DNA from: Roseiflexaceae bacterium
GTDB lineage: Bacteria > Chloroflexota > Chloroflexia > Chloroflexales > Roseiflexaceae
Length of the DNA: 64,000 nucleotides
Direction: 5' to 3'
Assembly (NCBI GenBank): GCA_947474225.1
Contig: CANJHS010000007.1
Span: 1-64,000 of the forward strand
The notes below the pieces were generated by a model. That model had not been told where the DNA came from, did not search any database, and saw only the letters and a list, made by a program, of their open reading frames with translations. The position numbers were made by a program, and so were the translations under genes. Within the stretch, counting starts at the first letter, position 1, and each line of letters opens with the position of its first letter. Shown one piece after another: positions 1 through 49,689 of this stretch.

Positions 1-795
1 CAACCAGATCTGCATGTCTTCGCCCATCGTGTCGTGGTGCAAGGCCCAACTGACTTCGAGGACCAGGGTGGCGCCGTTTTCGAAGCGCACAAAGCCGGAA
101 GCAAAATCCTCGACATCCATATCGGCAGGGATGCTGCCGGGATGCCAGACCGAGAACGCGCCGGGCTTTTTGGTGAGCTCACGGCGGGCCACGCCGGTGA
201 CCGAGACGGGCTTGGGGTGACCCATCAACCACAACGTCAGGTCGAGGACGTGGACGCCGATGTCGATACACGGGCCGCCGCCGCTCAGTTCCTTCTTCAC
301 AAAGCCAGCCGTGGGGATAAACGCATTACGGCGCAACATCCAGCTCCGGGCGTGGTAGACATCGCCCAAGGCACCGGCGGCGATTTCTTTCTTCATGGCC
401 TGCGAGACGCCAGCGAAGCGGAAGTGCTGGGCCGTCATCAATTTTTTGCCCGATTTGTCGCGGGCCGCGATCATCGTGCGCACCTCGGCAGGTGTCGGTG
501 CGAGCGGCTTTTCGCAGATGACGTGCTTTCCTGCTTCGAGGGCGGCAATCGCCAACGGGGCATGGTGCATGTTGGGCGTGCAGATGTCGACGATATCGAT
601 GCTGGGATCACGCAGTAGTTCAGCGAAATCGGTCGTTGTGCGCGTCACGCCGTAGCGTGCGCCCCATGCTTCGAGGGCTTTGGGATTAATATCCGCGCCC
701 GTGACGACTTCTGCATCGGTCGAAGCCGCCCAGCCGGGCATATGGGTATGCGCAATTCCACCAACACCGATGACCGCTACTTTCAATGGTGCCAT
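1..795 (-). CDS. Gfo/Idh/MocA-family oxidoreductase, partial (C-terminus beyond left edge)
   Basis: The open frame runs from ATG at 795 to the window edge, giving 265 codons with no stop, so the C-terminus is missing. Seen: an N-terminal Rossmann start with a GVGGIAHTH glycine-rich loop, and the EKPLA motif of the family, where the Lys is catalytic. Family members are NAD(P)-dependent oxidoreductases acting on sugars, inositols and similar polyols; the substrate here cannot be told. The start is supported by AAAGGAGTG about 5 bases upstream and by a good promoter at 834-862. The protein should be cytoplasmic. A second family member lies at 21609-22709. The family call is firm, the substrate unknown. 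Confidence 0.9.
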   Translation of the reverse strand, partial: MAPLKVAVIGVGGIAHTHMPGWAASTDAEVVTGADINPKALEAWGARYGVTRTTTDFAELLRDPSIDIVDICTPNMHHAPLAIAALEAGKHVICEKPLAPTPAEVRTMIAARDKSGKKLMTAQHFRFAGVSQAMKKEIAAGALGDVYHARSWMLRRNAFIPTAGFVKKELSGGGPCIDIGVHVLDLTLWLMGHPKPVSVTGVARRELTKKPGAFSVWHPGSIPADMDVEDFASGFVRFENGATLVLEVSWALHHDTMGEDMQIWL

Positions 796-833
796 GATTC
801 ACTCCTTTGTGCACAAACAGACCTTCTTGACGC

Positions 834-862
834 ATTGTAGCCCAGCTTCGCACCAGTGTAAA
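834..862 (-). promoter_or_regulatory. sigma70-like promoter of the MocA-family gene
   Basis: On the minus strand TTTACA (857-862) and TACAAT (834-839) are separated by 17 bases, close to the consensus. The promoter lies about 40 bases upstream of the ATG at 795. Confidence 0.6.
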
Positions 863-11585: not shown

Positions 11586-11615
11586 TTGACAAACGCCTGT
11601 GCAGCCGTCTATAAT
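11586..11615 (+). promoter_or_regulatory. consensus promoter of the second tRNA group
   Basis: TTGACA (11586-11591) and TATAAT (11610-11615), both perfect, 18 bases apart and 11 bases before tRNA-Leu(GAG). Confidence 0.8.
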
Positions 11616-11626
11616 ACCGTTCAGTT

Positions 11627-11715
11627 GCCGAGGTGGCGGAATTGGCAGACGCACTAGTTTGAGGGGCTAGTGAGCAGCAATGCTCGTATGGGTTCAAGTC
11701 CCATTCTCGGCACCA
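11627..11715 (+). tRNA. tRNA-Leu (anticodon GAG)
   Basis: Acceptor GCCGAGG pairs with TCTCGGC (one wobble). Anticodon stem CTAGT/GCTAG with loop TTGAGGG. Long variable arm, T arm TGGGTTCAAGTCCCA, encoded CCA. It reads CUC and CUU leucine codons. Confidence 0.95.
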
Positions 11716-11731
11716 CACACCCTCTTGGAAT

Positions 11732-11807
11732 GGGCGATTAGCTCAGTTGGTAGAGCACCTCGTTTACACCGAGGGTGTCGGCGGTTCGAGCCCGTCATCG
11801 CCCACCA
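11732..11807 (+). tRNA. tRNA-Val (anticodon TAC)
   Basis: Acceptor GGGCGAT/ATCGCCC, anticodon stem CTCGT/ACGAG-like with loop carrying TAC, T-loop TTCGAGC, discriminator A and encoded CCA. Standard 76-base class I tRNA. Confidence 0.95.
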
Positions 11808-11815
11808 GATATCAT

Positions 11816-11891
11816 GCCAAGTTAGCTCAGTTGGTAGAGCGCGTGTCTGAAAAACACGAGGTCACCGGATCGTGCCCGGTACTTGGCACCA
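11816..11891 (+). tRNA. tRNA-Phe (anticodon GAA) with an unusual T-loop
   Basis: Acceptor GCCAAGT/ACTTGGC, anticodon stem CGTGT/ACACG, loop CTGAAAA, T stem ACCGG/CCGGT, encoded CCA. All stems pair. The T-loop reads ATCGTGC, so positions 54 and 58 are A and T instead of the nearly universal T and A. It is the only Phe tRNA in this window. Confidence 0.93.
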
Positions 11892-11896
11892 CGATG

Positions 11897-11921
11897 CAGC
11901 CAGCCTACGGCTGGCTGTTTT
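11897..11921 (+). terminator. terminator-like hairpin after tRNA-Phe
   Basis: CAGCCAGCC, loop TAC, GGCTGGCTG, then TTTT: a nine-base perfect stem with a short T run. It lies 7 bases before tRNA-Ser, so it may terminate only partly. Confidence 0.6.
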
Positions 11922-11928
11922 CACATCT

Positions 11929-12016
11929 GGGGAGGTCGCATAGTGGCTTAGTGCGCGGAATTGGAAATTCCGTAAGGGGCAACCCTTCGAGAGTTCAAAT
12001 CTCTCTCTCCCCGCCA
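11929..12016 (+). tRNA. tRNA-Ser (anticodon GGA)
   Basis: Acceptor GGGGAGG/TCTCCCC, anticodon stem CGGAA/TTCCG with loop TTGGAAA, long variable arm, T-loop TTCAAAT, discriminator G, encoded CCA. Reads UCC and UCU. Confidence 0.95.
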
Positions 12017-25693: not shown

Positions 25694-26842
25694 TTATAAG
25701 CCTAAGGCGCTCTTGATGCGGTCTAAGATACCTTCGTCATGCGGGTGTGTCCCGCTGCTATGACCTGCGTTCCCCGCATCGCCGCCGGTCGAAGGAGTGA
25801 ATGTATGAGCCAATGCAGAAAAGAGCACACGTTGCTCTTCGGTGAGCTTGTCAGGAACAACAACCTTGGCAATCACAATCTGATCGCCGCGCCCCGTCGA
25901 ACGTAACATCGGCACACCCTTGCCCCGCAGTCGGAACGATGTCCCTGTCTGCATCCCGGGATTGATTTTGAGTGGTTCGCTGCCTTCGAGCGTCGGAATG
26001 GTCATCGTCGCACCGAGTGCCGCCTGCGCTACATTCACCGACATCTCGTAGATGACGTCGTTCTCTTGGCGGCGAAAGAACGCATGCGGCTGGATTTCGA
26101 ATACCACATACAAATTCCCGTAGGCACCACCGCGCGGACCAATCTCGCCTTCACCCGTCATACGCAGTTGTGATTGGCTATCGATACCAGCAGGTATTTT
26201 GAGATTAAGGCTATGAAGCGCCCGCACGCGGCCGTCACCACGACACTCACGGCAGGGGATCGCGATAACCACTCCCTCGCCCCGACATGCGTCGCAGGCC
26301 ATGACGGTGACCATGTTGAATATGGGCGACCGTTGCCGTACTTCACCGCTTCCGCCACAGCGAGTACAGCGCGTGGGTTCGGTCCCTTCCTGGGCGCCGT
26401 TCCCTTTACACGAACCGCACGTCTCTTGACGACGGTATTCTATGGTCTTTTCGACCCCAAACACTGCCTCTTCAAAGGTCAGTTTGAGGACGTATTTGAG
26501 GTCAGCTCCAGATTTGGGACCACGCTGGCCACGCCCGCCGCCAGAACCACCAAAAAACGACTCGAAAATAGCCGAAAACGGATCTTCACCGCCGAATGGA
26601 TCGCCACCACCGCCCATTTGCGGCCCATTATGCCCAAAGCGATCGTAGACGGCTCGTTTTTCCGCATCCGACAATACCGAGTTCGCTTCATTTATGTCTT
26701 TGAACATCGATTCGGCATCGGCTTCTTTATTGACATCGGGATGGAATTTGCGCGCCAAAGCACGATACGCCTTGCGTATATCGTCGGGGCTGGCATCACG
26801 CGGGATGCCCAGAACCTCATAGTAGTCGCGTTTGTTACTCAT
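25694..26842 (-). CDS. dnaJ: chaperone DnaJ
   Basis: 382 aa, full length. J domain 1-70 with the HPD motif (KFHPDVN), then a Gly/Phe-rich linker, a zinc domain with four repeats (CGSCKGNG, CTRCGGSG, CDACRGEG, CRECRGDG), and C-terminal substrate domains. Stimulates ATP hydrolysis by DnaK and delivers substrates. Directly downstream of dnaK. Confidence 0.97.
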   Translation of the reverse strand: MSNKRDYYEVLGIPRDASPDDIRKAYRALARKFHPDVNKEADAESMFKDINEANSVLSDAEKRAVYDRFGHNGPQMGGGGDPFGGEDPFSAIFESFFGGSGGGRGQRGPKSGADLKYVLKLTFEEAVFGVEKTIEYRRQETCGSCKGNGAQEGTEPTRCTRCGGSGEVRQRSPIFNMVTVMACDACRGEGVVIAIPCRECRGDGRVRALHSLNLKIPAGIDSQSQLRMTGEGEIGPRGGAYGNLYVVFEIQPHAFFRRQENDVIYEMSVNVAQAALGATMTIPTLEGSEPLKINPGMQTGTSFRLRGKGVPMLRSTGRGDQIVIAKVVVPDKLTEEQRVLFSALAHTFTPSTGGDAGNAGHSSGTHPHDEGILDRIKSALGL

Positions 26843-26881
26843 CTCGTCTTCCTACCAGGCAAAAGTATATCTATCGAACGC

Positions 26882-28783
26882 TCAGCGGGAACGTATGCGA
26901 TCCAGCAAGCTACTCAGTAATTGGGACGGTGCAAGCGATTGGGAAGGATCGATGGCAGTGATTTCATCGGTGATATCTACGGTCTCAGTCCGATGTTTGT
27001 TCTGGACATCATGGAGCACAATAGTTATGTCTGCGATTGCATTGCTGATGACTTGCACATCCGTACTCTCCCAGGCGTTATTGACCATCGCAATGGCCTC
27101 AGCCAGGATGGATTTACGTGCATCTGAAACCGTCTCATCATCATCGATGATGTTTTGCGCAGTGTAGACAAGTGTTTCGACCCGATTTTGCAACGCAACG
27201 AGATCGCGTTTGCGACGATCATCTTCGGCAAACAGGGCTGCTTCGACCACACGCGCATCGATTTCGGCCTGCGTCAACCCAGACGATGCAGTAACGGTAA
27301 TGTGCTGCTCGCGGTCGGTATTGAGATCACGGGCACGGACATTCAAAATCCCATCCGCATCGATGTCAAACGTTACTTCGATTTTGGGGGTACCGCGTTT
27401 GGCTGCAGGGATCCCGTCGAGGATAAAGTTACCCAGCAATTTGTTGCTGGTTGCTTCGGCACGTTCGCCCTGGAGCACATGGATTTCGACGGCTGGTTGA
27501 TTGTCTTGTGCCGTGGAAAACACTTGGCTCTTGAGGGTGGGTACGGTCGTATTCCGGGGAATCAACGACGTCATGACCCCACCCGATGTCTCGATGCCGA
27601 GGGTCAACGGGGTCACATCCAGCAACAACACGTCTTGGACTTCACCCGACAGCACCCCAGCCTGTATGGCTGCCCCAATGGCAACGACTTCATCTGGATT
27701 GATGCCTTTGTGCGGTTCTTTTTTGAAGTACTTCTTGACGGCGGATTGGATGGCTGGCATGCGGGTCTGACCGCCGACAAGGACGATTTCTTCGATGTCC
27801 GCAGGTGTCAGATTCGCATCCGCAAGGGCTTTGCGGACTGGCTCCAACGAGCGCTCTACCAAATCTTTGGTGAGTGATTCGAGTTTGGCACGCGTCATTT
27901 CGACCGTGAGGTGGCGTGGGCCAGCGGCATCGGCTGCAATGAAGGGCAAATTAATTTCGCTCTTTAAGGTAGAGGAGAGCTCCATCTTGGCTTTTTCGGC
28001 AGCCTCACGCATTCGCTGCAACGCGGTGCGATCGCCGCGGACATCGATTCCCGATTCTTTCTGGAAGAGCTCGATGAGGTGATGCACAATACGCTCGTCG
28101 AAATCGTCGCCGCCCAAATGGGTATCACCGTTGGTTGCGAGGACCTCGAACATACTGTCATTGAGTTCGAGGACCGACACGTCAAACGTCCCGCCGCCCA
28201 TGTCATACACCACTATCGTCTGGTGCGTGATGTTGTTGTCGAGGCCATACGCCAGTGCCGACGCAGTCGGTTCATTGATGATGCGAAGTACCTCGAGTCC
28301 TGCGATCCGACCAGCGTCTTTGGTCGCCTGCCGTTGCGCATCGTTGAAGTAGGCAGGGACGGTGATGACCGCTTGGGTGACTTTTTCACCGAGGAATGCT
28401 TCAGCGTCGAGTTTGAGCTTCTGCAATACCATTGCCGAAATCTCGGGCACGGCATAATCACGGCCGTTCAACGTGATGTTTACATCGCCATTATCTGCGC
28501 TGACGAGGTGATACGGCACCATGTTGGTATCGGATTGGACGTCTGCATCAGAATATTTACGGCCAAGGAAGCGTTTGGCTGAAAAAACTGTCTGTTCGGG
28601 ATTGACGACTGCTTGGCGTTTGGCAATCTGCCCTACCAGTCGCTCACCCGATTTGCTGAATGCAACAACCGACGGCGTGAGGCGCAACCCCTCTACATTG
28701 GGAATAATGGTCGGCTCGCCGCCTTCCATCACTGCCATGACCGAATTGGTTGTGCCGAGATCGATACCAATCACTTTCGACAT
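26882..28783 (-). CDS. dnaK: chaperone DnaK (Hsp70)
   Basis: 633 aa. Seen: the phosphate-binding [14 protein letters not shown] start, [14 protein letters not shown] and the hydrophobic linker [13 protein letters not shown]. The substrate-binding domain and lid follow. The extreme C-terminus is DRIRSR rather than the EEVD-like or acidic tail seen in many homologues. Protein folding in the cytoplasm with GrpE and DnaJ. Confidence 0.97.
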
Positions 28784-28850
28784 GCATTCCTCGTCATACG
28801 TCTTCTATACGCCACGTCATGCACCGCTGTGCACGCCGCTGTTGTGTTCC

Positions 28851-29378
28851 TTAGGAGTTCTTTTGACCGACCTTGACCATCGCAGGACGCAATATCTTGT
28901 CGCGGAGGAGATACCCACGTTGCAATTCGGCGACAACGAGACCATCTTTATCTGCGTCACATGGCTCGTAGGCAATAGCCTCATGCACGTTGGGGTCGAA
29001 CGTTTGGCCTACCGCAGCGACTGCGCTTACCCCTTCGCTATCGAGGAGGGTTTGGAACTTCTGGGGAATCAAGCGAAAGCCCTTGTACCAGAGCGTGCCC
29101 TCGACATCCGGTGTCACACTGGCTACGGCACGTTCGATATCATCGACGACAGGGAGGATTTTGAGCAACACGGCTGCCCCTGCCCGTGAGATGAGTTCGA
29201 TGCGTTCTGCATCGTAGCGGCGCTTCAGGTTTTTGTAGTCGGCTGTCGCCCGCAGGTAGGCGTCCTTGTGCTCGGCGACTTCCTTTTCGAGGGCGTCGAT
29301 GCGCGCCTGCATATCGGAAGAAGCAGGTGCTTCGAGGGGGGTCTCGTCGTGTGATTCTGGGTGTTGGTTGGTCGTCAT
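28851..29378 (-). CDS. grpE: nucleotide exchange factor GrpE
   Basis: 175 aa from ATG 29378, the most downstream start before the conserved region; longer starts would overlap hrcA. An acidic N-terminus, a long helix (residues 30-70, coiled-coil, IDALEKEVAEHKDAYLR), then the beta domain ending in DKILRPAMVKVG. Releases ADP from DnaK. It starts one base after the hrcA stop. Confidence 0.94.
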   Translation of the reverse strand: MTTNQHPESHDETPLEAPASSDMQARIDALEKEVAEHKDAYLRATADYKNLKRRYDAERIELISRAGAAVLLKILPVVDDIERAVASVTPDVEGTLWYKGFRLIPQKFQTLLDSEGVSAVAAVGQTFDPNVHEAIAYEPCDADKDGLVVAELQRGYLLRDKILRPAMVKVGQKNS

Positions 29379-29379
29379 C

Positions 29380-30498
29380 TCATTCTCCGTTTGGTAAACC
29401 ATGTAGGGAAACTTCGCGCTCAGCACGCGATTCACCATGTAACTCATACACCAAATCACTCATCACGCCTGCTATGTAGCGGACGGTGGCGATGGCACGT
29501 GCATACGGCATGCGCGTTGGTCCAACGACCCCGAGCACACCCACCATCTCATTATCCATCCCATAGCGAGCAAGTACCATACTGACCTCGCGTAGATCGG
29601 GACGTTGAGACTCTGCACCGATAAAGACCTGCACCCCATCACTCTGGGTGACCTGTGGGATCAGGGGGGCAAGTGCACTGCTCGACTGCACGAGTTCGAG
29701 CATGTGTTTGACCCGATCGGTGTCAGCAAATTCAGGTTGATTAAACATCTCGAGCAACCCATCTGAACGGATATCTATCGACAGCGCATCATCGTAGACG
29801 CGCAAAGTCGCACATACAAGATCAACAACTTGCCGCAGCAGAACGGGGTTTGCCTCGTTTACGGCATCCATCCGTTCACGAATCTGCGCAACCGATGCAT
29901 CGTGACACAACGCGTTCATCAGATTCGAGAGTCGTTGCAGTTCGTCGATGGGTTGGGCATGCTCAGTCACAAACGTCTGTTGGCGCACCATTCCGTCGTG
30001 CAAAACCATCACCGCCAAAATGACCATGTCATGAATAGGCACAAGATGGACATTGCGCAACCGCACGACCGGTCCGCGCGGCGGCAACACGACCGACACA
30101 TTCTGCGCGGTCCGTGCCATGACCGCCCCAGCCATGTGTATCCACTGATCGATGGTGGTATGGGCAGTCAAAAACTGTTGGCGAATCGCATGTTCTTCGT
30201 GCGTCGCCAACGTCGGCCGGTCCATTAAGTTTTCCACAAAAAACCGATACCCTGCATCGGTAGGCACTCGTCCCGCAGACGTGTGAAAGTGTGTCAGGTA
30301 GCCAAGGTCTTCGAGCGCCGACAATTCATTACGAATTGTCGCCGACGAGACGGTCATCCCGTATCGACGAACCAAATGCTCCGATGCAACCGGCGCCGAA
30401 GATTCTACATATTCTTGTATGACCAGTTTGAGAATCTGCCGGCGACGCTCGGTCATCTCTGCAAACATCTCGCCCCCCGGTTCAACAGACAAAAGCAT
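29380..30498 (-). CDS. hrcA: heat-inducible transcription repressor HrcA
   Basis: 372 aa from ATG 30498. The true start may be one of the in-frame ATG codons at 30468 or 30456, because the conserved region begins MTERRRQILKLV and only those have nearby purine-rich sequences. N-terminal winged helix (ATIRNELSALEDLGYL), then the dimerisation domain. In most bacteria HrcA binds CIRCE upstream of chaperone genes and is kept folded by GroEL. I see no CIRCE upstream of this operon. Confidence 0.93.
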   Translation of the reverse strand: MLLSVEPGGEMFAEMTERRRQILKLVIQEYVESSAPVASEHLVRRYGMTVSSATIRNELSALEDLGYLTHFHTSAGRVPTDAGYRFFVENLMDRPTLATHEEHAIRQQFLTAHTTIDQWIHMAGAVMARTAQNVSVVLPPRGPVVRLRNVHLVPIHDMVILAVMVLHDGMVRQQTFVTEHAQPIDELQRLSNLMNALCHDASVAQIRERMDAVNEANPVLLRQVVDLVCATLRVYDDALSIDIRSDGLLEMFNQPEFADTDRVKHMLELVQSSSALAPLIPQVTQSDGVQVFIGAESQRPDLREVSMVLARYGMDNEMVGVLGVVGPTRMPYARAIATVRYIAGVMSDLVYELHGESRAEREVSLHGLPNGE

Positions 30499-32941: not shown

Positions 32942-33946
32942 TTAGATGACGACAAACCCATCCTCATCTGTATCACGTACCGTAGTCGGTTCAGGAGGGG
33001 TATCGGAATCTGGGGGAGAGCTTGGTTCGCTGACCAGCGGTTTGAGCACACCGTCTTCGGTGATTATCGGTACGTCAGCATCCGGCGTTTTTGATTCATC
33101 AGATTCGGTGAGATCAGGTGTAGCGTCGGAAGAATCATCACGAAAAAACCTGACAGCTTCCGGAGAAGCCAAATACGAATCATCTGCATGAGGCGGCGCC
33201 GGCTCGACAAGAGTCTCCCTCATGGTTTCTTCAATTGGAACTGCGGACACCTCTGGCACAGCATCGGCTTCTTCACTGGCGATCGGTGTAAAAGCAGGAA
33301 TGAAGGGTACAGCATCCGCATCCGCATCAATTGGCTCTGGAGCAGAAGATTCTCTGGTGGAATCGATAACGGCATGTGTTTCTGGGTGCACAGCTGCGTA
33401 TGTCAACGCAGTCATAGAATCGGTGTCTTTCAGCACTGGAGCTGCATCAGCCACAAGGCTTTGGAGTCGATCAAAGCGATATTCTCCATACGGTCCAAGA
33501 CTTTGAAGAGCCGATATACCCGTAAAAACCAATAGCCAAATCAGAAACGGAGAGAATAAGTGGTCGGCATCTGTTACAAAGCGATAGCGTTCAAACTCGG
33601 AAAAATTCGGGGCTGTAGACTTCGTCATCCAGGCTGCATAGAAAACAATGGGGATCAGCAACAAAACTGCAAAATCAAGCCACTTCGCTACTCCAGCCCT
33701 GCTCCGCAGAGTGAACGCACCCATTGTTAAGCCAAAGCTTACTTCTACAAAGTAGACAATTCCCCACAGAAGTACAAAGAGCAAGATTAAATAGACGTGA
33801 ATAACATGCCATTGGTCTGCAGTATTCCAGTTTAATTTTGTAAAAAATATGGCACGAGTATCATTGCTTTCGAGGAAATTCAGCAAGATGACATATATCG
33901 CTGTAATTTTGTAGAGACTGATGCTCCAAAACGGATGATTACGCAT
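32942..33946 (-). CDS. four-helix membrane protein with a long acidic tail, unknown function
   Basis: 334 aa from ATG 33946. The start overlaps the previous stop by eight bases; a longer frame from 34021 would overlap more. Residues 1-170 contain about four hydrophobic helices, including HVYLILLFVLLWGIVYFVEV and AVLLLIPIVFYAAWM. Residues 175-334 are Asp/Glu/Ala/Pro/Ser-rich without predicted structure, ending DEDGFVVI. I do not recognise a family. As the last gene of the operon it probably anchors or scaffolds the tubulin-like proteins at the membrane, with the tail in the cytoplasm. That role is an inference. Confidence 0.75.
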   Translation of the reverse strand: MRNHPFWSISLYKITAIYVILLNFLESNDTRAIFFTKLNWNTADQWHVIHVYLILLFVLLWGIVYFVEVSFGLTMGAFTLRSRAGVAKWLDFAVLLLIPIVFYAAWMTKSTAPNFSEFERYRFVTDADHLFSPFLIWLLVFTGISALQSLGPYGEYRFDRLQSLVADAAPVLKDTDSMTALTYAAVHPETHAVIDSTRESSAPEPIDADADAVPFIPAFTPIASEEADAVPEVSAVPIEETMRETLVEPAPPHADDSYLASPEAVRFFRDDSSDATPDLTESDESKTPDADVPIITEDGVLKPLVSEPSSPPDSDTPPEPTTVRDTDEDGFVVI

Positions 33947-36900
33947 CACGGGTCTTCTTCCTATTGACCTGAACATACGGATATAGTTCGACGTGGTCGG
34001 TCGAGCGCCACCGGTACCCACGCGCCAAGCATTTTTTGATGATGTTGTTTGGGAGGATCGGATCCTCTACATCAGTCTTGATTGCACCACTCTCAAGATC
34101 GAACACCGTTCCCGTTTCTGGAGTGAACGCTTCCAATCCAACGAGTACAAGTAGTCGATCGATACTGTGATCAAAATTCTTGAGGGCGATTCTGGTTACT
34201 TCGTCTGCTTGTGCAGAACAAAACAAATCATACGGTCGAAGTACAAGAGGAATGACGCGGCGTAGATCCTCGGTGGTATGGAGATGCAAATGATATTCAG
34301 CGAGATCTTTCTCCGCAAAGGCTAAGTACTTTTGCGTTGCCATGATAAGCAGGATGCTCGTATGGACTGGAACTGAAGTGTCCGAAAATGCGTCGCGGAG
34401 CATAAAAACTGATTTACTGACATGCTCGCGCACAGCATCAAGCAGTGAAGCGACGGGGGGGATTATTGATTCAATACCAATATCTGGCTCTACAAAAGTG
34501 CCTCGCAATGATTTGAGCTGTTCGCGTCGTGCGTGTTCTCCAGCAGCTTCGAGTTGACGCCACCTCGCCACTTCACTTGCCACGACCCCACAGTACATTC
34601 GAATCATCATGACACGATGCGCATCCGGCCAATCCACTGCAGTAACAGAGCCATCTGGTCCATCAATGACCGCATCAAAAAATGGTCGCACTCGCCGCGA
34701 CACCATGAGCGCATCAAGACGCAAGCGGCTGTAAGTGTCCGACACTTCATAGTCATGGGTAGCCTTCAGCCATGGTACGCTTGAGCGCCAGAGTCGATGC
34801 ATTAATGTCAGGACATCCTGACCTACGAGATACTCATCAATTGATTTGGTAGAGATGTCAGATACGACTGGGTCGATTTGAGTCTCAAGACGTGCTACAA
34901 CTGTGTCTATGTCTTCCACGCGCCATGGGTCCTCAGCACCGCCACTCCGTGGACGCCACGACGATACGACATTCACTCCATACCGGCTGACAATCGAATC
35001 GGCTACTTGCTTTTGATATGGAACCATCACATCGACTGGATCGACGACCGCTGATTCCAAATAATCAATTCTTTTGCGAAAGAGCCGGTCACGTTCGAGC
35101 GCATCAGGTGAAGTTGCTCGGAGTGCAGAATCACGATGTGCAGCCAACTCCCCCAGTGGTACTGCCAATTCTTCGGCGCGTTGATTACCCAATCTTGCCT
35201 GAATCACCGACGCCACAATAGCAGTATGGTCAGCCAAAACCGCACTCGCACGGCTCTTGAGATACGCCTCGAGCTGCCGTTTGCGCCATTGCTGTTGCCA
35301 AATAACGCCAATGTATGGTAAGAGCCAAATAACGATTGTCGGAATCAATACAATCAACGTTGTTGCGAACAACAGTCGCGACCAGACCGCAGGCGGATCT
35401 GCATAACTGAAGTCGAATATCTGCATCGGGAATAATGCTGTCTGCGCCTTCCAGGCTGCATCCCAATAGAGTTGGAATAAGATGGCGATGAGGCACGCCG
35501 CCCGAACAAGCATTGCAGGTAAATGCGCACGGAGGTCCACAGCCCGCTCAAGCATAATATCGGGATTTACCCCAAACCACGTGCGTGTCTCAGTAATGCG
35601 TTTGAGCTCGCGATCAGCGATTTTGCTTTCACGGATGGCCTGGGCACCGAGAGTTTCGCTGTGTTCATGCAGGACTCGTGCCGCTTTTCGTAGTGTCGCA
35701 ACACTTTTTTGAAGCCCGTCCCCTCCAAGCGAGAGCAACATCGCGGTACTCCGACCAGCTTCGGCTTCGGATTCGCGTGCAGTCTCGTAGCGATTATCTG
35801 CAAGCTGTGTTGCAAACGTCGACATCATTTCTGCCGACGTCGCCTGCGCTTCACGTTGGCGCGCCAAGATGACGGCAGCAGTCAGTTGCTCGTCGAATGG
35901 ATTAGCAGAACTTGCTGTGACGGTAATTCCGTCTACATTCGGTTTGATGATGATGTCATTCGCCGAGATACCGACGTCAATATTCAGATTCGTATTATGT
36001 TCGAATGGACCTTTCGCGGATTCTACAGAAAGCGTATTGACGCTTTTCCGCGCGTTTTCACTCAAATATGTCGAGAACCGCGACACAATGCTTTGGACGG
36101 TGGCGTCATCAGTTTTGTCAACCGAATCAGCGGGCAACAAACGATCTCGAATCAACGTTCCCAGCGTGTATCGGCGCACCAAAGTGGTTATGTCACGTAA
36201 CGGAACAACTAATGAAGCCGATCCAACACCAATGTAGAGCTGACGCGTCGTCATCGTGTGGTCATCGAGCAACGCTTGGTCAATTGTACGAGGAAGCGCG
36301 CTATAAACCATCCCTTCTAGCAGCGAAGAAACGTGGGTAGCGACTTCGAATACATCGTCGTCTTGACCAATCGATCCATTGTTTTCTTTGTGGCCATCAA
36401 TCCAAAATATGTTGTCATAGAGCCGCGTATCGTATCCGTCTGAACCAATACCAGCTCGCACTTTGCCTTGCCAAATAACTTCCCCTGCAGCCAGTCGGTC
36501 GCCTTCGTCGAAGACGGTCCATGTATTTGCTTCGCCGCCTTCCCGTTGACTCGCATCTTCGCGATAGTCTGCTGAAACGAACACCCCGTATAGGGTGTAC
36601 TGCATTGAAGATCCAATAGCGGCTCGGATAATTGCTGACAGTGGCCACAACAGTGCACGCCCTGTCTCACTCCAGGTTGCCCCGACGACGATGATGACCG
36701 GACGAAGCGTGTCGAAGAGCGGCGCATCGCGATGCAATCTGACCGTATTAAACATCTGACGCAAATCACGAGCGATATCGCGAAGCGATTCCTCGGTCAA
36801 TTGCGATGCACGAATGTCATCAGCCTTGTCTTCAAAGATTGCTACGTTTGTAGGCAGAATCCGTGTGTACACGGACCCCGCATCCTCACCCGCCAGTGGC

Positions 36901-37037
36901 GTCTTGAAGCCACGGTAGACGTCACGTTGGAGTGCGATTCGATCGCGAACCGCCAGACCAAATGCACCCACCCCAATGATGATTGCTGGCTGTGGTGATT
37001 CAGTGGTCCTGATTGCGTCGTGTTGGGGTATCGACAT
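33939..37037 (-). CDS. large membrane-associated protein, tubulin-like paralogue lacking the G-box (inferred)
   Basis: 1032 aa. N-terminal strand and loop AIIIGVGAFGLAVRDRI (18-34) parallels the VLGLGGTGTAIIRHLK start of the next gene. At 113-126 the strand VIIVVGATWSETG sits where the partner has its GGTGSGT tubulin signature, and both are followed by a similar helix and beta strand. Thus it may be a divergent tubulin-like protein without a working nucleotide loop. Two membrane helices lie at about 504-525 and 555-578 with a short loop between. The C-terminal 450 residues are helical. Its own family is not recognised. It starts seven bases after the GTPase stop. Confidence 0.7.
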   Translation of the reverse strand: MSIPQHDAIRTTESPQPAIIIGVGAFGLAVRDRIALQRDVYRGFKTPLAGEDAGSVYTRILPTNVAIFEDKADDIRASQLTEESLRDIARDLRQMFNTVRLHRDAPLFDTLRPVIIVVGATWSETGRALLWPLSAIIRAAIGSSMQYTLYGVFVSADYREDASQREGGEANTWTVFDEGDRLAAGEVIWQGKVRAGIGSDGYDTRLYDNIFWIDGHKENNGSIGQDDDVFEVATHVSSLLEGMVYSALPRTIDQALLDDHTMTTRQLYIGVGSASLVVPLRDITTLVRRYTLGTLIRDRLLPADSVDKTDDATVQSIVSRFSTYLSENARKSVNTLSVESAKGPFEHNTNLNIDVGISANDIIIKPNVDGITVTASSANPFDEQLTAAVILARQREAQATSAEMMSTFATQLADNRYETARESEAEAGRSTAMLLSLGGDGLQKSVATLRKAARVLHEHSETLGAQAIRESKIADRELKRITETRTWFGVNPDIMLERAVDLRAHLPAMLVRAACLIAILFQLYWDAAWKAQTALFPMQIFDFSYADPPAVWSRLLFATTLIVLIPTIVIWLLPYIGVIWQQQWRKRQLEAYLKSRASAVLADHTAIVASVIQARLGNQRAEELAVPLGELAAHRDSALRATSPDALERDRLFRKRIDYLESAVVDPVDVMVPYQKQVADSIVSRYGVNVVSSWRPRSGGAEDPWRVEDIDTVVARLETQIDPVVSDISTKSIDEYLVGQDVLTLMHRLWRSSVPWLKATHDYEVSDTYSRLRLDALMVSRRVRPFFDAVIDGPDGSVTAVDWPDAHRVMMIRMYCGVVASEVARWRQLEAAGEHARREQLKSLRGTFVEPDIGIESIIPPVASLLDAVREHVSKSVFMLRDAFSDTSVPVHTSILLIMATQKYLAFAEKDLAEYHLHLHTTEDLRRVIPLVLRPYDLFCSAQADEVTRIALKNFDHSIDRLLVLVGLEAFTPETGTVFDLESGAIKTDVEDPILPNNIIKKCLARGYRWRSTDHVELYPYVQVNRKKTRDA

Positions 37038-37044
37038 CCGTAGC

Positions 37045-40000
37045 CTATGCTTCTATCAAGCGGATTGCAATCAAGCTGACGTCTTGATAATTAATGGAAT
37101 TACGCAGTTCTGTGACGATAGCATCAGTGATGCGACTCGGATCGGTGCGGAACCGTTCTACCGACTGGCGAAGAGCATTCTGCAACAGCGGCGTATTCAC
37201 GCCATCACTAGCGAGCACGATGTTTGTGTTGACACCAATGTTTGACAAAACAATTGTGCCATCTCCACTCAAATCTGACGTCGTTCCATCTGCTGCATAC
37301 AGTCGAACAAAGTCACCACCGCTTGCAGCTGCGAGGAGTTGGTCGTCCTCGATGATGCTCACGGCATATGCGATGCTCCGTTCGACACGCCCTTGCTGGC
37401 GCGCCAAGCGGTTGATGTCTTCAGTAGCACGCTGGCGGGCTGTTTCGAAGGCTACCTTGAGTCGTTCACCAGCCGACCCAGTGATACGCGTGCTTCGTAG
37501 CGTCTGTTCGAGCGACGCTGACACGGTGCGAATCCAGAGTCGTGCCAAATCGTCATTTTCGGCATTCAAATCATCGGCAATCAATGCAACATTCCAACTG
37601 AAACCGTTTGACAGCTCGATTGAGCGATGAATCACAGCCTCGGCACCGTACGACTTATTGGCACGTGGGTGCGAAAAACTGTCCCCGATGACGCGGAGGC
37701 GTGAACGCGTTGGTTGTACTAATAATGGTGTCGAAACCGAACTCCCTTTGACGAGATTACTCATTCCATTCGGCCAATCACGATGGATATGCAGAGGATC
37801 GCCAAGGGTCTCGGTGAAGTAGCGATAGGATTTGTAGTATTCCTTGAGGTTTGCTAAATCGTCAACCTTATAGCCGAAACGTGCATGGACGACATCGAGT
37901 CGATTGGGCATACCGGTGTCAATCAAATCATAGGAATCCCCACCGAATTCATCCAACGGATGCTGTCCAGTCTCGAGAATTTCTTTCTTCGGGAGTGGAC
38001 TTGCTCCTAAAAGCCGTACTGGTTCGGTGTCGAAGCCGTGTTCGGTACCCAATTGTGCCTGATCAATATTGAGGAACGGCGACTGGGCCCGGTATCGGAG
38101 TTGACGGAGTGGGTCAATCGGGCTATTGCGCGATATAGATGACTCTGCTGTCGAGTACGGAACGTTATCGTAGAACCAGGTAAGGTAGTCCGATACACTG
38201 ATACGCTCAAAGATATCTTTGTGGCCAGCCAAAAACTGCGTTATCGCTTCTTTGTAAAGCCGGAAGGTATCTGTTGAATCAGTAATGGTTACCGCTATCC
38301 GAACGTCTTGTTCATGAGGGTAGATGTAGTGCACCAACTTCATTTCGTTGATGAGTTTCTGCAATTGTTTTTTTGCGTCTGCATCAAGGTCAATCGTCTT
38401 GACGCGGTTGGTGATATAGTGCCCGAGCAAATCTTCGCCGAATTCATGTTTGCCGCGATCTTCTACTGCACGCTCTTTGCCCAATTCGGTAGCAAGTTCA
38501 AACAGATCGCTCGGCTTTTGTTCTCGGCTCTTTTGACGATTGACCTCCGGCTCTTTGACTTTGTCGTTGAGGGTCGTCTGCCATTCGTCAAAAACCGCCT
38601 GCTGCCGAGTAATCGTGCTGTTGAATGTCGTGAGTTGAGACCGCAGTGACGTGACAACAGATCGCACTTCCTGGAGATATCCGCGTTCCGCTCCGCCTGT
38701 GTTGATTTTGCGCGTCAAATCGTTACGCAGTTGCTCTTCACCCTCGTCGTTTTTCGTAAACATATTGAAAAGACGACGCGATGTGTTATTCAATGCCTCG
38801 CGCTTTTTCTCGTCTTCGGTCATCCGTGACGTTGTCGCACCTATTTTTTCGTCAATACGGATAAGGAGTTCGCTCAGAACTTCCGACATCGCTGACCCTA
38901 CCGATGCCGCACCCAACATGCCTTTTTCTTCAGAGTACTGTTGGAGTAACGCCGATACCTGTGTGGTTAATTCTCGGGTGGCGGTTGCGACTGCAGGTCC
39001 AGAGTCGCCCTTGCCTTTGGCTGGTTTGTAATCGAGCAGTGCTTCCCAGCTTTCGCGCAGTTGTTCACGAATGCGTGAAACCTGAAGGGGTGCGAGTGTG
39101 CTACCGACAATGTGTGAAGCCAGCACATGGGCTGCATAGCGGTTGCCGGTTTCTTCGACGACACGTTCGGGCAACACAAGGGACGCGGTCACAAAACCGG
39201 CAATGGCCAGCGCGCTACTCGATTCGTTGTCGCTGCCCTTGCGTTGTTCGCCAGCCAGGTCGTTGAGGTTGACGCGACGGCCCGCCAAACGCTTACCGAT
39301 GGGAGTAATCATATCGAGGTAGATGAATTGGGCGGCCATGCGCTGAATCTCACGAAGGGCACTCAGATGCTCTTTGCCGTTGTGTGAATCTACCAAAAAG
39401 ACGCTGTCGAACGGCCGGGTCAACACAGACGACACCTTGTTGCCTTCGCCGTCGTAGTATGGAGTATCTGGGAATGTCGAAACGAACTTGGTATTGGGGC
39501 TGAGGAAGTGGTTCAGCTCGCGGAGTGCGGCATATGCATTGCCTTGAACTCGTTCTTTTTGGACTTGGCTTTGCATATTGGGCATGAAGCATGATGGCAA
39601 AAACAAAATGCCGATGATTTCGGCTTCGTCACCCAGAGCTTTACGCACACGAAAGGCAGCGTCGATGAACGTGCCCGACCCGGTGCCACCACAGACCGAT
39701 GCCAAGATATACACCCGCACCTGACCGGTACGTTCGACATCGAGGCCGTACCGTTCGGTTTTTTCTTTTTCTGAAATCTCTTGCACACGACGAATCTTGG
39801 GATCGAGTCGTTGGGTGAATTCGCCCCACTTGGCGTAGAGTGACAGACGGCCGACGGCACGGCGTTGTCGTGCACCTTTGTAGATTGAACCGACGACTTT
39901 GCCGTTGGTGAACCACCAGTCTTTGATGTGTGGGTGGTTGTCTATGTTCTCGAGCACTGCACCAGCATTAAAGTCACCGATGTATGCGATTTCACCGTCA

Positions 40001-40215
40001 TAGAGACGCTCTTCGCCGGGCAGGTTTTGGATTGGCTCGGTGTCGACGGCCAAGAATTCGACCAATCGCGGGATGGGCATATTGCCGACTGCCTGACGCA
40101 ACCGAGATTTGAGGTGACGAATAATTGCGGTACCGGTGCCACCTAATCCCAAGACAATCGTGGGTGCAATATACATCGAAGATGGACGATATCCCTGCTT
40201 GGACGAATCAGTCAT
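37045..40215 (-). CDS. FtsZ/tubulin-like GTPase (bacterial Tubulin_2 type)
   Basis: 1056 aa, with GAGGAG before the ATG. Seen: the N-terminal VLGLGGTGTA loop (21-30), AVDTE (56-60) at the position of the FtsZ NTDAQ segment, and CGGTGSGTF (175-183), the tubulin/FtsZ nucleotide-binding signature. The N-terminal roughly 400 residues form the GTPase part; the remainder is long and mostly helical. Makarova and Koonin described this diverse FtsZ-like family as linked to VWA proteins and proposed a role in membrane remodelling. The VWA gene directly upstream fits. Filament formation is inferred, not seen. Confidence 0.88.
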   Translation of the reverse strand: MTDSSKQGYRPSSMYIAPTIVLGLGGTGTAIIRHLKSRLRQAVGNMPIPRLVEFLAVDTEPIQNLPGEERLYDGEIAYIGDFNAGAVLENIDNHPHIKDWWFTNGKVVGSIYKGARQRRAVGRLSLYAKWGEFTQRLDPKIRRVQEISEKEKTERYGLDVERTGQVRVYILASVCGGTGSGTFIDAAFRVRKALGDEAEIIGILFLPSCFMPNMQSQVQKERVQGNAYAALRELNHFLSPNTKFVSTFPDTPYYDGEGNKVSSVLTRPFDSVFLVDSHNGKEHLSALREIQRMAAQFIYLDMITPIGKRLAGRRVNLNDLAGEQRKGSDNESSSALAIAGFVTASLVLPERVVEETGNRYAAHVLASHIVGSTLAPLQVSRIREQLRESWEALLDYKPAKGKGDSGPAVATATRELTTQVSALLQQYSEEKGMLGAASVGSAMSEVLSELLIRIDEKIGATTSRMTEDEKKREALNNTSRRLFNMFTKNDEGEEQLRNDLTRKINTGGAERGYLQEVRSVVTSLRSQLTTFNSTITRQQAVFDEWQTTLNDKVKEPEVNRQKSREQKPSDLFELATELGKERAVEDRGKHEFGEDLLGHYITNRVKTIDLDADAKKQLQKLINEMKLVHYIYPHEQDVRIAVTITDSTDTFRLYKEAITQFLAGHKDIFERISVSDYLTWFYDNVPYSTAESSISRNSPIDPLRQLRYRAQSPFLNIDQAQLGTEHGFDTEPVRLLGASPLPKKEILETGQHPLDEFGGDSYDLIDTGMPNRLDVVHARFGYKVDDLANLKEYYKSYRYFTETLGDPLHIHRDWPNGMSNLVKGSSVSTPLLVQPTRSRLRVIGDSFSHPRANKSYGAEAVIHRSIELSNGFSWNVALIADDLNAENDDLARLWIRTVSASLEQTLRSTRITGSAGERLKVAFETARQRATEDINRLARQQGRVERSIAYAVSIIEDDQLLAAASGGDFVRLYAADGTTSDLSGDGTIVLSNIGVNTNIVLASDGVNTPLLQNALRQSVERFRTDPSRITDAIVTELRNSINYQDVSLIAIRLIEA

Positions 40216-40235
40216 AACTACTCCTCGTAGATTGT

Positions 40236-43200
40236 TTACTTATATGAAACCCGGATACCTTCATCGCCGAACCGGGCAGATCTGCTGAGCTTTGCAGTTT
40301 GCTGCGCCTTTGCATCAGGATTCAAATCATCGTCTGTTATCCAAACGCCGATGGTTTCGCCGTCGATAGCCTTAATCCCACCGACAACGATATCGTCCTC
40401 CGACTCACTTCCTTGTTTCACCACACCGAGACCTTCAAATCCCCCGTAGGATGGGCGCACGATGGATAACGGACTGTTTCCATACGCCGTGAGCGAAATC
40501 CAGCGTGTTGTGACATCGTCTTGGCTGAACCGAATCTCTCCCGCATAGCGCCGATAAAACTTTGTAATCAGCCAGCGTATGAGCAGAACACCAAGCAGGA
40601 TTAGGAGAAGCCGTTGAATAACTTCCCACCATGATTTTGTGGGGACACGCAGTATTACAGATTTGGGACTGACAACCCGAGGATCTGTAATATCCAACTG
40701 AACATCGTACTCCTTGCCGGGCCATCGGAGCCACGGAAGGTTCGTCTCGACCAGATAGCCATCGTAGAGATGTGAACGCGTGTTGAGATTCGCTGGCGTC
40801 CACGAAAAATCATACGGGTCATTGACGAGGGCGTTATTTTCTTGGATATCCGCAACCGTCTGGCTGAGCGGGTTGTCGATCACCGGCATCGTACGTGTGT
40901 GCGTAATGATGGCCGAGTATGAAATCTGGGTTTCGTTTTGAAATGGAATCCAGATAGGCCAGATAGCATTGTCTACCGCATATGTGTCAGACATATTCTG
41001 AACACGACGATTTTCGGGGAAGAGTATCTGCACCTGCGGCGCACCGCGACGAATCTTGACCCCTCGGAGTGCTGGTTCGACGGGGACGGCTGGATTGGAG
41101 GTCTGTCCTGCCAGACTGAACGTGTATTCTCCGGCTGCTAAGCGGGAACCCTCGATGATAATTCGGTAGCCTTCAGGGCACGATGTATCTGGCTGAATCA
41201 TTGCAGTGATGTCACTTGCATTTGCCTTCTGCGAACCGGCATACACATCACTCACCACGAGCTCTGGTTTGAGTACCGCATCAGGCGACAGCACGGGGTA
41301 TGCACGAACGCACTGAGAGGTCGTGCTGTTTATTTCGTCGATGGAATCTGCAAAAGTGAAGCCGTCGGGGAGGATGTCCCAATGCCATGACGATGCAGGC
41401 CTGGTAAAGCGGAGTTGCAACGGCTCTTTGGTACCCCCTGATACCGTCTGCGTTTCGACGGTGTAGTTATCCACGGATAACCCGCTCACATCGCCGAGTG
41501 TGAATGGGTAGCGAATAACTGTTTTACCATCAGCTGCTTTCTGCATGGTTGGCTCTTCAAATTGGAGCAATTCGGGATTGCCAGTGGAGCCATTTTGTCC
41601 GAGCATATTCATCTTTGACGTATCGATTGTAGGGATACTCCCGCCGCGAATTTTGGTTTTACATATAAGTGCATTACGAAAGACCTGCGTCGTCGAGATG
41701 ACGCCGATATCGACAAATGATGTCCCAGTGCTGTCTTGCAATGGACTTGGTCCACTCGTCGTACGTTCGAGTTCGAATGCACAGCTCATGGATGGAGTGA
41801 CGATTCGTTGCTGATAAAGCGCGATTGGTCTACCCTCATACACGCCTGGGATGACCACGCGTACGTTTGACTGAACCCCCGGATCAGACTCGATGTCTGC
41901 GGAACCAGAACCATCCGCGATGGAGAGGTCTTGGGTTGCTACTGACTCATCCCCGAGAGCTTGCAGTGAATCGCTGATAGGTTGGGTGAACACCAGGCCA
42001 TTGGTCAACGAGAGGGCTGTTGTATCAGGGAGTGAAGTCTCGATATGGAGCTCACTCTCAGAATTGAGTTTGGGCGATGTAATGGTCGGGCTGGTTATTT
42101 CGAGGGGTAATTCAACTGTTGATGGTTGAAACTCATAGCAGCGGCGTAAGTTTATCGATCCAACTTGCTGCACACCCACACCGACATATATTGGGTTCTC
42201 GGATTCTTTGATGGTCTCCCAGAAAACGGTATCACCGGATTTATTGAGACCGTTTTGCTGTGCTGGTGCATCTGAAAGCCTGGTAGTTTGATAGTCCTCG
42301 CAGCTGGCGAGTGTCGATACACGCACCGCAGAGAACAACGATTGTTCGAGGTTCGTCACCGTGGCACCGACCAGGACTGAGGATGCCCCACGCGGGAAGC
42401 CCATAATTGCACTGTCTGTGGCATTTTCGTCGGGATATCGTAGGACCACTTCGAGCGCAGATTGCACAAAGACAAAACTGGTCACATCAGCAGGATTCGC
42501 ATTTGCAGTGAATTCAAATTTTCCATCTATACCACCGGGTTTTTCATAGAAAAAACTGCGAAATCGACCTGTGGTGGCACCAGATTTACCCGCAAAGGGT
42601 GATTTCTTTTCTGTGACTGTGAGTAGATTTTTGTTGGCATTTGATGCAAATACAAACGTCGCTTTTTCGATTTGCTGGCCTTTTATAGCACTCGTAATAT
42701 ATGCAGAAGAATTCGTTCCCGTGCCCGCAGCTCCGCCAATGACATCGAGGTATGCGCTCGGTTTGAGATAGGTTATGACCGAAGCCATTGCCCGTGCGAT
42801 GTCGAAGGCTGACGCTATAGGAATGACCCGTTGATTGGCTTGCGTGAAGCCGGCACTCACTTTGGCAAATGTATCAGTGTTCGAGGCAGTGTCCGGCTTC
42901 AATGCCAACAGGAATACTGGTACACCGAGTGCCTTGAGCGCTGCAGTGGTGTTTTTGGTGATATCGTCACCTTCACCCAGATCTTCGGGCGCTCCATCTG
43001 TCAAAAAAATGACCGCTCGTTTATTCCCTGAACCCGTCTGGTCCAGCAAGGCTTTGGCGTTGGTGAAGGCTGCCTGGTAGTTTGTGCCATTGGGTTCGAC
43101 AGCGGGATCACGGACGACCCATGTACCATCAAACGGCGAAACGGTTTTGGCATTGGCAGGCGGATTGGAATAGTCGACTGCCATGTCACTGATTTTTTTA

Positions 43201-43538
43201 CGAAAGTCGGTTTTGACTTCAGAAGAGAGACGAAAAAATTGATTATCCAGCGTCCGGGCTGTTTTGGAAAAATGAACAACACCGACGCGATCTTTTTCGT
43301 CGAGCAAATCGACGAGCATATTTGTTGCTTCGTAGCGCAGGCCGTACGGGTCTGACCCTGTCATTGCTGTTGACTTATAGTTCGAATGCATCGAACCAGA
43401 ATTGTCAATAATAACGATAATATCGAGGTTTTGAGCACTGCTGGATGCGGTCACGCGTACGGGCATTAAAAGTCCTGACACGGCGAGGTAGAGTGCCAGA
43501 AGGAGGGGGGCTTTTCGCAATAATCGAGAATATTTCAT
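40236..43538 (-). CDS. membrane-anchored von Willebrand factor A domain protein
   Basis: 1100 aa from ATG 43538, with GGAG upstream. A signal peptide at 1-31 ends near ASS. VWA domain about 38-260: the metal-binding (MIDAS) site is complete, with DNSGS (D45, S47, S49), T152 and D181 in LTDG. Long extracellular beta-rich region to about 965. A transmembrane helix (RLLLILLGVLLIRWLI) follows and then about 110 cytoplasmic residues. MIDAS domains bind protein ligands through a divalent metal. It is the first gene of the operon with the tubulin-like GTPase, 20 bases upstream of it. Confidence 0.88.
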   Translation of the reverse strand: MKYSRLLRKAPLLLALYLAVSGLLMPVRVTASSSAQNLDIIVIIDNSGSMHSNYKSTAMTGSDPYGLRYEATNMLVDLLDEKDRVGVVHFSKTARTLDNQFFRLSSEVKTDFRKKISDMAVDYSNPPANAKTVSPFDGTWVVRDPAVEPNGTNYQAAFTNAKALLDQTGSGNKRAVIFLTDGAPEDLGEGDDITKNTTAALKALGVPVFLLALKPDTASNTDTFAKVSAGFTQANQRVIPIASAFDIARAMASVITYLKPSAYLDVIGGAAGTGTNSSAYITSAIKGQQIEKATFVFASNANKNLLTVTEKKSPFAGKSGATTGRFRSFFYEKPGGIDGKFEFTANANPADVTSFVFVQSALEVVLRYPDENATDSAIMGFPRGASSVLVGATVTNLEQSLFSAVRVSTLASCEDYQTTRLSDAPAQQNGLNKSGDTVFWETIKESENPIYVGVGVQQVGSINLRRCYEFQPSTVELPLEITSPTITSPKLNSESELHIETSLPDTTALSLTNGLVFTQPISDSLQALGDESVATQDLSIADGSGSADIESDPGVQSNVRVVIPGVYEGRPIALYQQRIVTPSMSCAFELERTTSGPSPLQDSTGTSFVDIGVISTTQVFRNALICKTKIRGGSIPTIDTSKMNMLGQNGSTGNPELLQFEEPTMQKAADGKTVIRYPFTLGDVSGLSVDNYTVETQTVSGGTKEPLQLRFTRPASSWHWDILPDGFTFADSIDEINSTTSQCVRAYPVLSPDAVLKPELVVSDVYAGSQKANASDITAMIQPDTSCPEGYRIIIEGSRLAAGEYTFSLAGQTSNPAVPVEPALRGVKIRRGAPQVQILFPENRRVQNMSDTYAVDNAIWPIWIPFQNETQISYSAIITHTRTMPVIDNPLSQTVADIQENNALVNDPYDFSWTPANLNTRSHLYDGYLVETNLPWLRWPGKEYDVQLDITDPRVVSPKSVILRVPTKSWWEVIQRLLLILLGVLLIRWLITKFYRRYAGEIRFSQDDVTTRWISLTAYGNSPLSIVRPSYGGFEGLGVVKQGSESEDDIVVGGIKAIDGETIGVWITDDDLNPDAKAQQTAKLSRSARFGDEGIRVSYK

Positions 43539-48609: not shown

Positions 48610-49689
48610 TTACCCTTTCCACCCAATCGTTATGTCGAATAACACATCGTCAGCAGACCCACTCCGGGTATACGGCAACGCCGATAGATTCACGCTACAG
48701 CCGACACCATAGAACTGCGTCGATGCATCTTGCCAGGCCTGATTGAAATCTGCCGACACGCCTGCTTTGGTGGGGACATAGCGCATGATGGTGTGTGTCT
48801 GGCGCTTGGCGTAGAGCCGCAGCAGGTGATCCGTCAGCGCTGCGACGCCAATGAGGGTGTGATGTGCCTCGGTATACTGCAGACCGATGCGCTGTGGAAC
48901 GGTACGCAAGAACGCACTGGCAGGGTGCTTTTTTTGGAGTGCTGTCGTGACGGCATCCTGGTAGCGCGTGCGGGCAGCGGGGTAGGCCGGCTCGCCGACC
49001 TCTGGCGTGATGCGGTGATCGCGTTGGATCTCTTCGTCGCTGAGCAGGTAGTAGCTATAGGCAGCATGGGTGGACGGCGCGTCGCTGTGCGGGCTGTCCC
49101 AGGTGACATCGACGTGGTACCAGGTCCCATCGAGGCAGATCATGTTCCAGCCGTGACGCACCTTGGTGACCATCGACTCACCGCTGACGATGCGCACCGG
49201 AATCCCCACTGCCTCGCAGAGGTAGGCATAGGCAGCAGCGTAGCCGGCACAGACCGTTTGACCGCTGGCAAAGCCATCGTAGGCGGTCGATTTGGTGCGA
49301 GTCTGATCATAGCGGAAGTGCTGGACAATCCAATCATGGAGGACCAACGCTTGTTCGTGCGTACTCATCATCGGGGTAATCTGCTCGGCGATGATCCGCT
49401 GGACGTGCTCATGCACCAGAGCCAGCTGCGCAGCGGTATCACGATAGGTAATCGTGAGGCCAATCGTGAACGTCGTGCCGCGTTGGCTGCGTTCGACGAG
49501 GATCGACTCGACGGCACTGCGCTCGACGTCACGCACGCCATTGAGCAGTGCACCCTGCAAATCAGGCAGGTTGAAGACGTTTTTTGCACCGTCGAATTGC
49601 CAACTCCCCACATCAATCCGCTGGCTGACGTGCAGATCCACCTGGGATTGCAGCTCGGCGAGCGAATGCACGACGGTTTTGCGCGTCAT
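48610..49689 (-). CDS. transglutaminase-like domain protein
   Basis: 359 aa. Seen: VCAGYAAAYAYLCEAVG with the catalytic Cys, then HGWNMICLDGTWYHVDVTWD with the catalytic His and Asp. This is the transglutaminase-like (PF01841) fold in its YhgE/Kre-type variant. Members act as cysteine proteases, peptidases or amidases. No signal peptide, so cytoplasmic unless exported otherwise. It overlaps the M48 gene upstream by four bases (ATGA), so the two are translationally coupled. Confidence 0.85.
   Translation of the reverse strand: MTRKTVVHSLAELQSQVDLHVSQRIDVGSWQFDGAKNVFNLPDLQGALLNGVRDVERSAVESILVERSQRGTTFTIGLTITYRDTAAQLALVHEHVQRIIAEQITPMMSTHEQALVLHDWIVQHFRYDQTRTKSTAYDGFASGQTVCAGYAAAYAYLCEAVGIPVRIVSGESMVTKVRHGWNMICLDGTWYHVDVTWDSPHSDAPSTHAAYSYYLLSDEEIQRDHRITPEVGEPAYPAARTRYQDAVTTALQKKHPASAFLRTVPQRIGLQYTEAHHTLIGVAALTDHLLRLYAKRQTHTIMRYVPTKAGVSADFNQAWQDASTQFYGVGCSVNLSALPYTRSGSADDVLFDITIGWKG

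Follow-up and report, generated by a model that had tools for sequence, protein, structure and literature searches.

The stretch of DNA analysed here (hereafter the window) comprises 64,000 nucleotides, positions 1 to 64,000 of contig CANJHS010000007.1 in the Roseiflexaceae bacterium assembly GCA_947474225.1, a draft genome of 2.97 Mb that is 87% complete. It carries an operon of four genes, here called A to D, which code for a secreted VWA protein (A), a GTPase of the FtsZl1/Tubulin_2 family (B), a second tubulin-like protein that lacks the GTP loop and is inserted in the membrane (C) and a small four-helix membrane protein (D). All four are uninterrupted reading frames that share the minus strand between positions 32942 and 43538, with spacings of exactly 20, 7 and -8 bases, so that every countable detail of the initial annotation proved correct (Table 1). 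The order A-B-C is retained in related genomes, including a Roseiflexaceae metagenome-assembled genome of the same genus (L063), which argues that the arrangement is not due to chance. B and C are each present as a single copy in the source genome, where two canonical FtsZ genes lie in tandem away from the operon (C30:29959-31650 of G000), and B is therefore not the division FtsZ. Promoter and terminator scans gave no useful excess over shuffles.

Table 1. Features of the operon in the window (aa, amino acids; TM, transmembrane; AF2, AlphaFold2; VIA, VIA-align)
Feature	Position	Strand	Evidence
A: secreted, membrane-anchored VWA protein, 1100 aa	40236..43538	-	Pfam VWA E 2e-9 (aa 39-182), hydrophobic N-terminus, one TM helix
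VWA domain of A, MIDAS-type DNSGSM	42993..43424	-	Pfam match and motif
TM helix of A, aa 973-991, followed by predicted cytosolic tail of ~109 aa	40566..40622	-	Hydropathy
B: FtsZl1/Tubulin_2 GTPase, 1056 aa	37045..40215	-	PF13809 E 2.3e-54; Foldseek CetZ E 1e-5; VIA Z 24.8 to CetZ1
GTPase domain of B, N-terminal, aa 20-359	39139..40158	-	Pfam; AF2 pLDDT mostly 70-94
GTP phosphate loop of B, GGTGSG, aa 176-181	39673..39690	-	Sequence; conservation in 20 relatives
Long helical/coiled-coil insert of B, ~aa 378-690, separating the two tubulin-fold parts	38146..39084	-	AF2 secondary structure; CetZ1 alignment range 17..802
Tubulin fold of B, C-terminal part, ~aa 730-824	37744..38028	-	AF2 model; VIA alignment
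PP2C-like C-terminal domain of B, aa 870-1054, probably inactive	37054..37608	-	hhalign Prob 96.8, E 2.4e-10
C: membrane-inserted tubulin-like protein without GTP loop, 1032 aa	33939..37037	-	Profile-profile comparison and VIA
Tubulin-like domain of C, N-terminal, aa 14-304	36126..36998	-	hhalign E 2.3e-15 (own clade only 2.4e-7); VIA Z 15.1
Degenerate T4 loop of C, GATWSETG, aa 119-126	36660..36683	-	Alignment to CGGTGSGT
TM hairpin of C, aa 506-573 (helices 506-524, 555-573)	35319..35522	-	Hydropathy; relatives
Tubulin fold of C, C-terminal part, ~aa 770-836, tentative	34530..34730	-	VIA range 14..836; low pLDDT
GrpE beta-domain-like end of C, aa 946-1029	33951..34202	-	hhalign Prob 90.4, E 1.4e-6; Pfam GrpE in relative L013
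D: four-helix membrane protein with acidic tail, 334 aa	32942..33946	-	Hydropathy; position in relatives; homology only to L012

The first two genes are of a known kind. A has the VWA domain and the signal-peptide-like N-terminus that had been attributed to it, and hydropathy adds a single TM helix near its C-terminus. B matches PF13809 with 185.4 bits (curated cut-off 27) and carries CGGTGSGT at aa 175-182, in agreement with the GTPase signature read from it earlier; within this loop GGT is invariant and GS nearly invariant across 20 relatives. The pairing of a VWA gene with a Tubulin_2 gene is known from Makarova and Koonin (2010; PMC2875224), and the reading of the locus as a VWA-FtsZl1 operon stands. 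A tubulin fold for B is borne out by structural alignment of its AF2 model to CetZ1 (Z 24.8; 299 of the 330 CetZ1 residues aligned, root-mean-square deviation 4.0, model residues 17-802) and by Foldseek, which found CetZ and tubulin (E 1e-5). With 299 CetZ1 residues aligned, residues of B that follow the coiled coil must match part of the second tubulin domain, from which we infer that the tubulin fold of B is nearly complete and interrupted by a helical insert. In 2010 the second part of the fold could not be identified for the FtsZl1 family (PMC2875224).

The initial annotation saw no second GTPase and regarded C and D as two unrecognised membrane proteins; their two and four helices are evident from hydropathy, but C is a second, degenerate tubulin-like protein, a paralog of B that has lost the GTP loop. 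The C protein of the window itself has no direct PF13809 match, nor any Pfam match at E up to 1, while PF13809 matches 9 of 15 C proteins of relatives (best E 1e-16). When the C and B families were compared profile to profile (hhalign), the match had E 2.3e-15 over approximately 300 N-terminal residues; because this first C profile mixed clades, the comparison was repeated with separate sets: C proteins of the window's clade alone (E 2.4e-7) and those of other families alone (E 4.6e-15) both match B, and the two C sets match each other (E 2.6e-9) over a region that extends past the tubulin domain to aa 459. GGTGSG occurs at the loop position in none of 23 C-type proteins, compared with most B-type proteins, the single pattern match (L056) falling in a low-complexity stretch. 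When the C model was aligned with VIA-align, tubulins ranked throughout (Z 15.1, 272 aa, residues 14-836), which places the hairpin within an insert equivalent to that of B, and two helices are found at a similar position in most C relatives. Past the N-terminal domain no C-terminal sequence shared by B and C was detectable by sequence, and PDB sequence searches with the B and C profiles returned only coiled-coil chance matches. With C being tubulin-like, the operon centres on a pair of tubulin-like proteins.

Conservation was assessed in a sample of 400 Chloroflexota genomes, 46 of which contain PF13809. The C family was found in 24, two of these being cross-hits to B, and B is present in 21 of the 22 that are left (in G293 the B adjoining C was recognised on inspection; the exception is G366). 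This co-occurrence has a Fisher p of ~5e-18 on a conservative count, a value inflated by kinship, with cases spanning six families. At more than 20 loci the gene immediately downstream of B, in the same orientation, is C, and a VWA gene usually precedes the pair. A scan of genome contigs gave only two loci, and one of viral contigs gave no matches. The proposal that both membrane proteins would accompany the VWA/tubulin pair in other genomes thus holds for C and, as regards D, for its place: a small multi-helix gene follows C in ~18 loci, whereas the D of the window has a detectable sequence homolog in one congener only (L012). D has no significant Pfam match and a profile of other families' D proteins misses it (profile-profile Prob 0.9), so that D is conserved in place only. 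Independent evidence that tubulin, VWA and second tubulin-like parts work together comes from G056, where a single chain of 3513 aa combines a Tubulin_2 domain (GGTGS loop), a VWA domain, a beta-propeller and a second Tubulin_2 domain with an altered loop.

Several related loci show other arrangements. In G366, C and D are found together without an adjacent B or VWA gene (L121:9292-12607), and no other genome is a clear instance of one that has C but lacks B. Just upstream of the fusion in G056 (L014:7299-17840) are a second VWA gene and one for a metallophosphatase-like protein. In G010 the DoxX-DAO-hrcA genes that flank the operon were found, with no operon homolog in the 8.7 kb beyond DoxX. 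In one other family, f18 (L072, L074, L075, L076), a weak Tubulin_2 protein that has no GTP loop and has mid-protein TM helices is encoded directly before a VWA gene; no intact B was seen at these loci, which perhaps represent a pseudo-GTPase-only system.

Both tubulin-like proteins of the window end in additional domains. The tail of B aligned with 36 PP2C proteins over 182 columns (hhalign score 70, E 2.4e-10; 20 shuffles reached at most 17.8), and the corresponding tail of a congener matched SpoIIE (E 0.017). The full set of PP2C metal-binding motifs is not present, since SDG is kept but ADG is replaced by ADD and the final DN by QD, and the domain is thus probably inactive. This tail is found in the congener L012 and not in L013. 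The last 80 residues of C scored 44.5 against GrpE, compared with at most 15.3 in 20 column shuffles, and the C protein of L013 matched Pfam GrpE with E 1.4e-5, half a bit below the cut-off. The match does not include the long dimerising helices of GrpE (profile positions before ~95 of 165), and C proteins outside the window's clade do not have this end. PDB sequence searches with both tails gave chance matches only, and GrpE and PP2C folds were absent among the Foldseek matches, the models being of low confidence there. In G314 an FHA protein is encoded ahead of the VWA-tubulin-C operon (L043:4051-4974) and a PP2C gene lies nearby (G314:C41:46470-46988), which again point to phospho-signalling.

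Approximately 2.4 kb beyond D, a dnaK-grpE-hrcA cluster with a likely dnaJ lies on the operon's strand (window 25694-30498). Its proximity was considered as a functional link and rejected, grpE and the operon being 1.7 Mb apart in the Chloroflexus-like G054. Six tRNA genes (Leu, Gln, Leu, Val, Phe, Ser) are clustered at window 11256-12016. In the congener L012 the operon is preceded by a second VWA paralog (2-2050) and a transglutaminase-like gene (2242-3312), whose product is 43% identical to that of window 48610-49689. In the Chloroflexus-like relative L013 (1919-6270) it is followed by genes for a 128-aa membrane protein, an unknown 397-aa protein and a HerA-like ATPase. The same gene set follows the operon in L064, which is labelled Acidobacteria (isolate J014) but whose operon closely resembles that of G054, and which is probably misbinned.

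The nearest described relative of the operon is the FtsZl1-VWA system, in which FtsZl1 was defined with VWA, kinase, GTPase and OmpA partners and a role in membrane remodelling was proposed (Makarova and Koonin, 2010; PMC2875224). B shares the N-terminal FtsZ-like domain, long coiled coil and C-terminal part of that family, an adjacent VWA gene is common to both, and Chloroflexus aggregans was included in the 2010 alignment (PMC2875224). Unlike the published description, in which OmpA and the P-loop GTPase are frequent rather than universal partners, the operon contains neither, and instead has a loop-less tubulin-like membrane protein and GrpE-like and PP2C-like tails. A Pfam scan of A-D and the neighbouring open reading frames of the window found no P-loop GTPase and no OmpA, the lack of the latter having been noted from the outset. 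Chloroflexota are commonly considered to have no typical outer membrane, and the missing OmpA is therefore expected rather than striking. C may be listed, without its kinship to tubulin, among the uncharacterised partner families in additional file 6 of the 2010 study (PMC2875224).

Kaur et al. (2020; PMC7159879) described GTPase-centred systems with three non-overlapping themes, tubulin+VWA, HSP70+GrpE and kinase+PP2C+VWA. Their GAP1-N2 systems likewise include VWA and tubulin-domain genes, with two tubulin genes in Firmicutes and HSP70/GrpE and PP2C as alternatives (PMC7159879). Neither their regulatory GTPase and GAP1 components nor an effector domain were recognised by Pfam in A-D or the adjacent open reading frames, a search that included no dedicated GAP1 profile. 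Unlike the published themes, tubulin, GrpE-like and PP2C-like parts here occur in one operon and pairwise even in one polypeptide, which suggests that the separate themes are parts of one network. In Synechocystis, Tubulin_2 is also encoded in a membrane-related cluster, Sll0445-Sll0447 (Tubulin_2, FtsA-like, DivIC-like), which has other partners and for which the available part of the report mentions no pseudo-tubulin or VWA protein (PMC9880817). Disruption of sll0445 impairs phototaxis and Sll0445 associates with pilus proteins (PMC9880817); it is the only Tubulin_2 protein for which we found functional data. BtubA/BtubB and alpha/beta-tubulin resemble B and C in being two paralogous tubulin-fold subunits that are encoded or act together. 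In those pairs GTP is bound by both subunits and neither is known to cross the membrane, whereas C has no GTP loop and carries a TM hairpin.

Our data suggest, at about even odds, a membrane-linked tubulin system under the control of a VWA protein, in which a surface sensor is combined with a GTPase/pseudo-GTPase pair and C serves as the membrane anchor. B would be the GTP-binding tubulin-like subunit. Its paralog C would have the same two-part tubulin fold with the membrane hairpin in the arm between the parts, and its combination of tubulin fold, missing GTP loop and hairpin in an inserted arm argues for a pseudo-GTPase that would not bind GTP in the customary way and that displays a tubulin face to the cytoplasm at the membrane, where it could cap, nucleate or co-assemble with B. 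A would respond to an extracellular ligand, metal ion or force and relay the signal through its single helix to a membrane patch formed by C and D, with D as a small membrane partner, and the PP2C-like tail of B and the GrpE-like tail of C may be docking modules for phospho-regulation and DnaK. The predicted topology fits the trans-envelope machine envisaged in the initial annotation. Candidate outputs would be envelope shape, adhesion or surface motility, and vesicles; surface sensing or motility is our first guess by analogy, because VWA proteins act at surfaces and phototaxis is impaired in the Synechocystis Tubulin_2 mutants (PMC9880817). A more specific form, in which the GTPase and the transmembrane pseudo-GTPase form a tubulin heteropolymer that is anchored in the membrane by its own subunit, gated by the VWA protein and docked to DnaK and phospho-signalling through the GrpE-like and PP2C-like tails, is put forward only tentatively.

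Several observations weigh against this interpretation. The C model is weak (mean pLDDT 54) and Foldseek with this model alone was not significant (CetZ1 E 0.022). A single profile of other families' C proteins misses the C of the window (E 0.25), so that its relationship to them rests on profile-profile comparison. The unit is patchy, neither Tubulin_2 nor C having been found in 8 of 10 congeners, of which some are incomplete drafts. The GrpE-like and PP2C-like tails are missing from most relatives and are thus accessories rather than part of the core mechanism. In addition, according to its 2010 description the FtsZl1 family may form filaments by a novel mode or may not polymerise (PMC2875224).

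This last point leads to a possible but doubtful alternative, namely a static, heteromeric complex of B and C in the membrane, in which GTP acts as a switch and filaments are never made, the long arm and hairpin of C being structural and the complex positioning an adhesin or secretion apparatus. Such a static scaffold would explain the long helical inserts in both B and C, agrees with the non-polymerising family that the 2010 authors left possible (PMC2875224) and with the single-chain fusion in G056, which fits a fixed stoichiometry, but sits less well with B, which keeps a tubulin fold that is nearly complete along with its GTP loop. It is unlikely that the operon is instead an immunity-like conflict system similar to those of Kaur et al. 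(2020), with tubulin, HSP70/GrpE, PP2C/kinase and VWA as a stimulus-gated assembly that disables infected cells: the unit is patchily distributed and those systems are assembled from equivalent classes of parts (in Firmicutes, pairs of tubulins with VWA; HSP70+GrpE; PP2C+VWA; PMC7159879), but PADLOC has no model matching A-D and the GTPase, GAP1-type protein and effector domain went unrecognised in the scan described above. That A and B are simply the VWA-FtsZl1 system as already described, with C and D as unrelated passengers, is very improbable and for C already largely refuted, because C is itself tubulin-like and follows B in more than 20 loci of six families with B in 21 of 22 C genomes, even though VWA and B occur without a recognised C in L044, L045 and L049 and the sequence of D is not conserved.

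A VWA-controlled, membrane-linked tubulin pair is the favoured reading. The operon is real, conserved and of a known kind, and we found no description of its membrane-inserted, loop-less tubulin-like partner, which may be listed as an uncharacterised family in the 2010 supplement. For the FtsZl1 family no mechanism has emerged since 2010, its partners having been listed as lineage-specific proteins of unknown kind. The structural alignments suggest that in this family the tubulin fold is nearly complete and interrupted by a helical arm, and the recognition of C as a membrane-inserted tubulin-like pseudo-GTPase that stands beside the GTPase across the phylum turns the earlier guess of membrane remodelling into a pair of proteins that can be tested.

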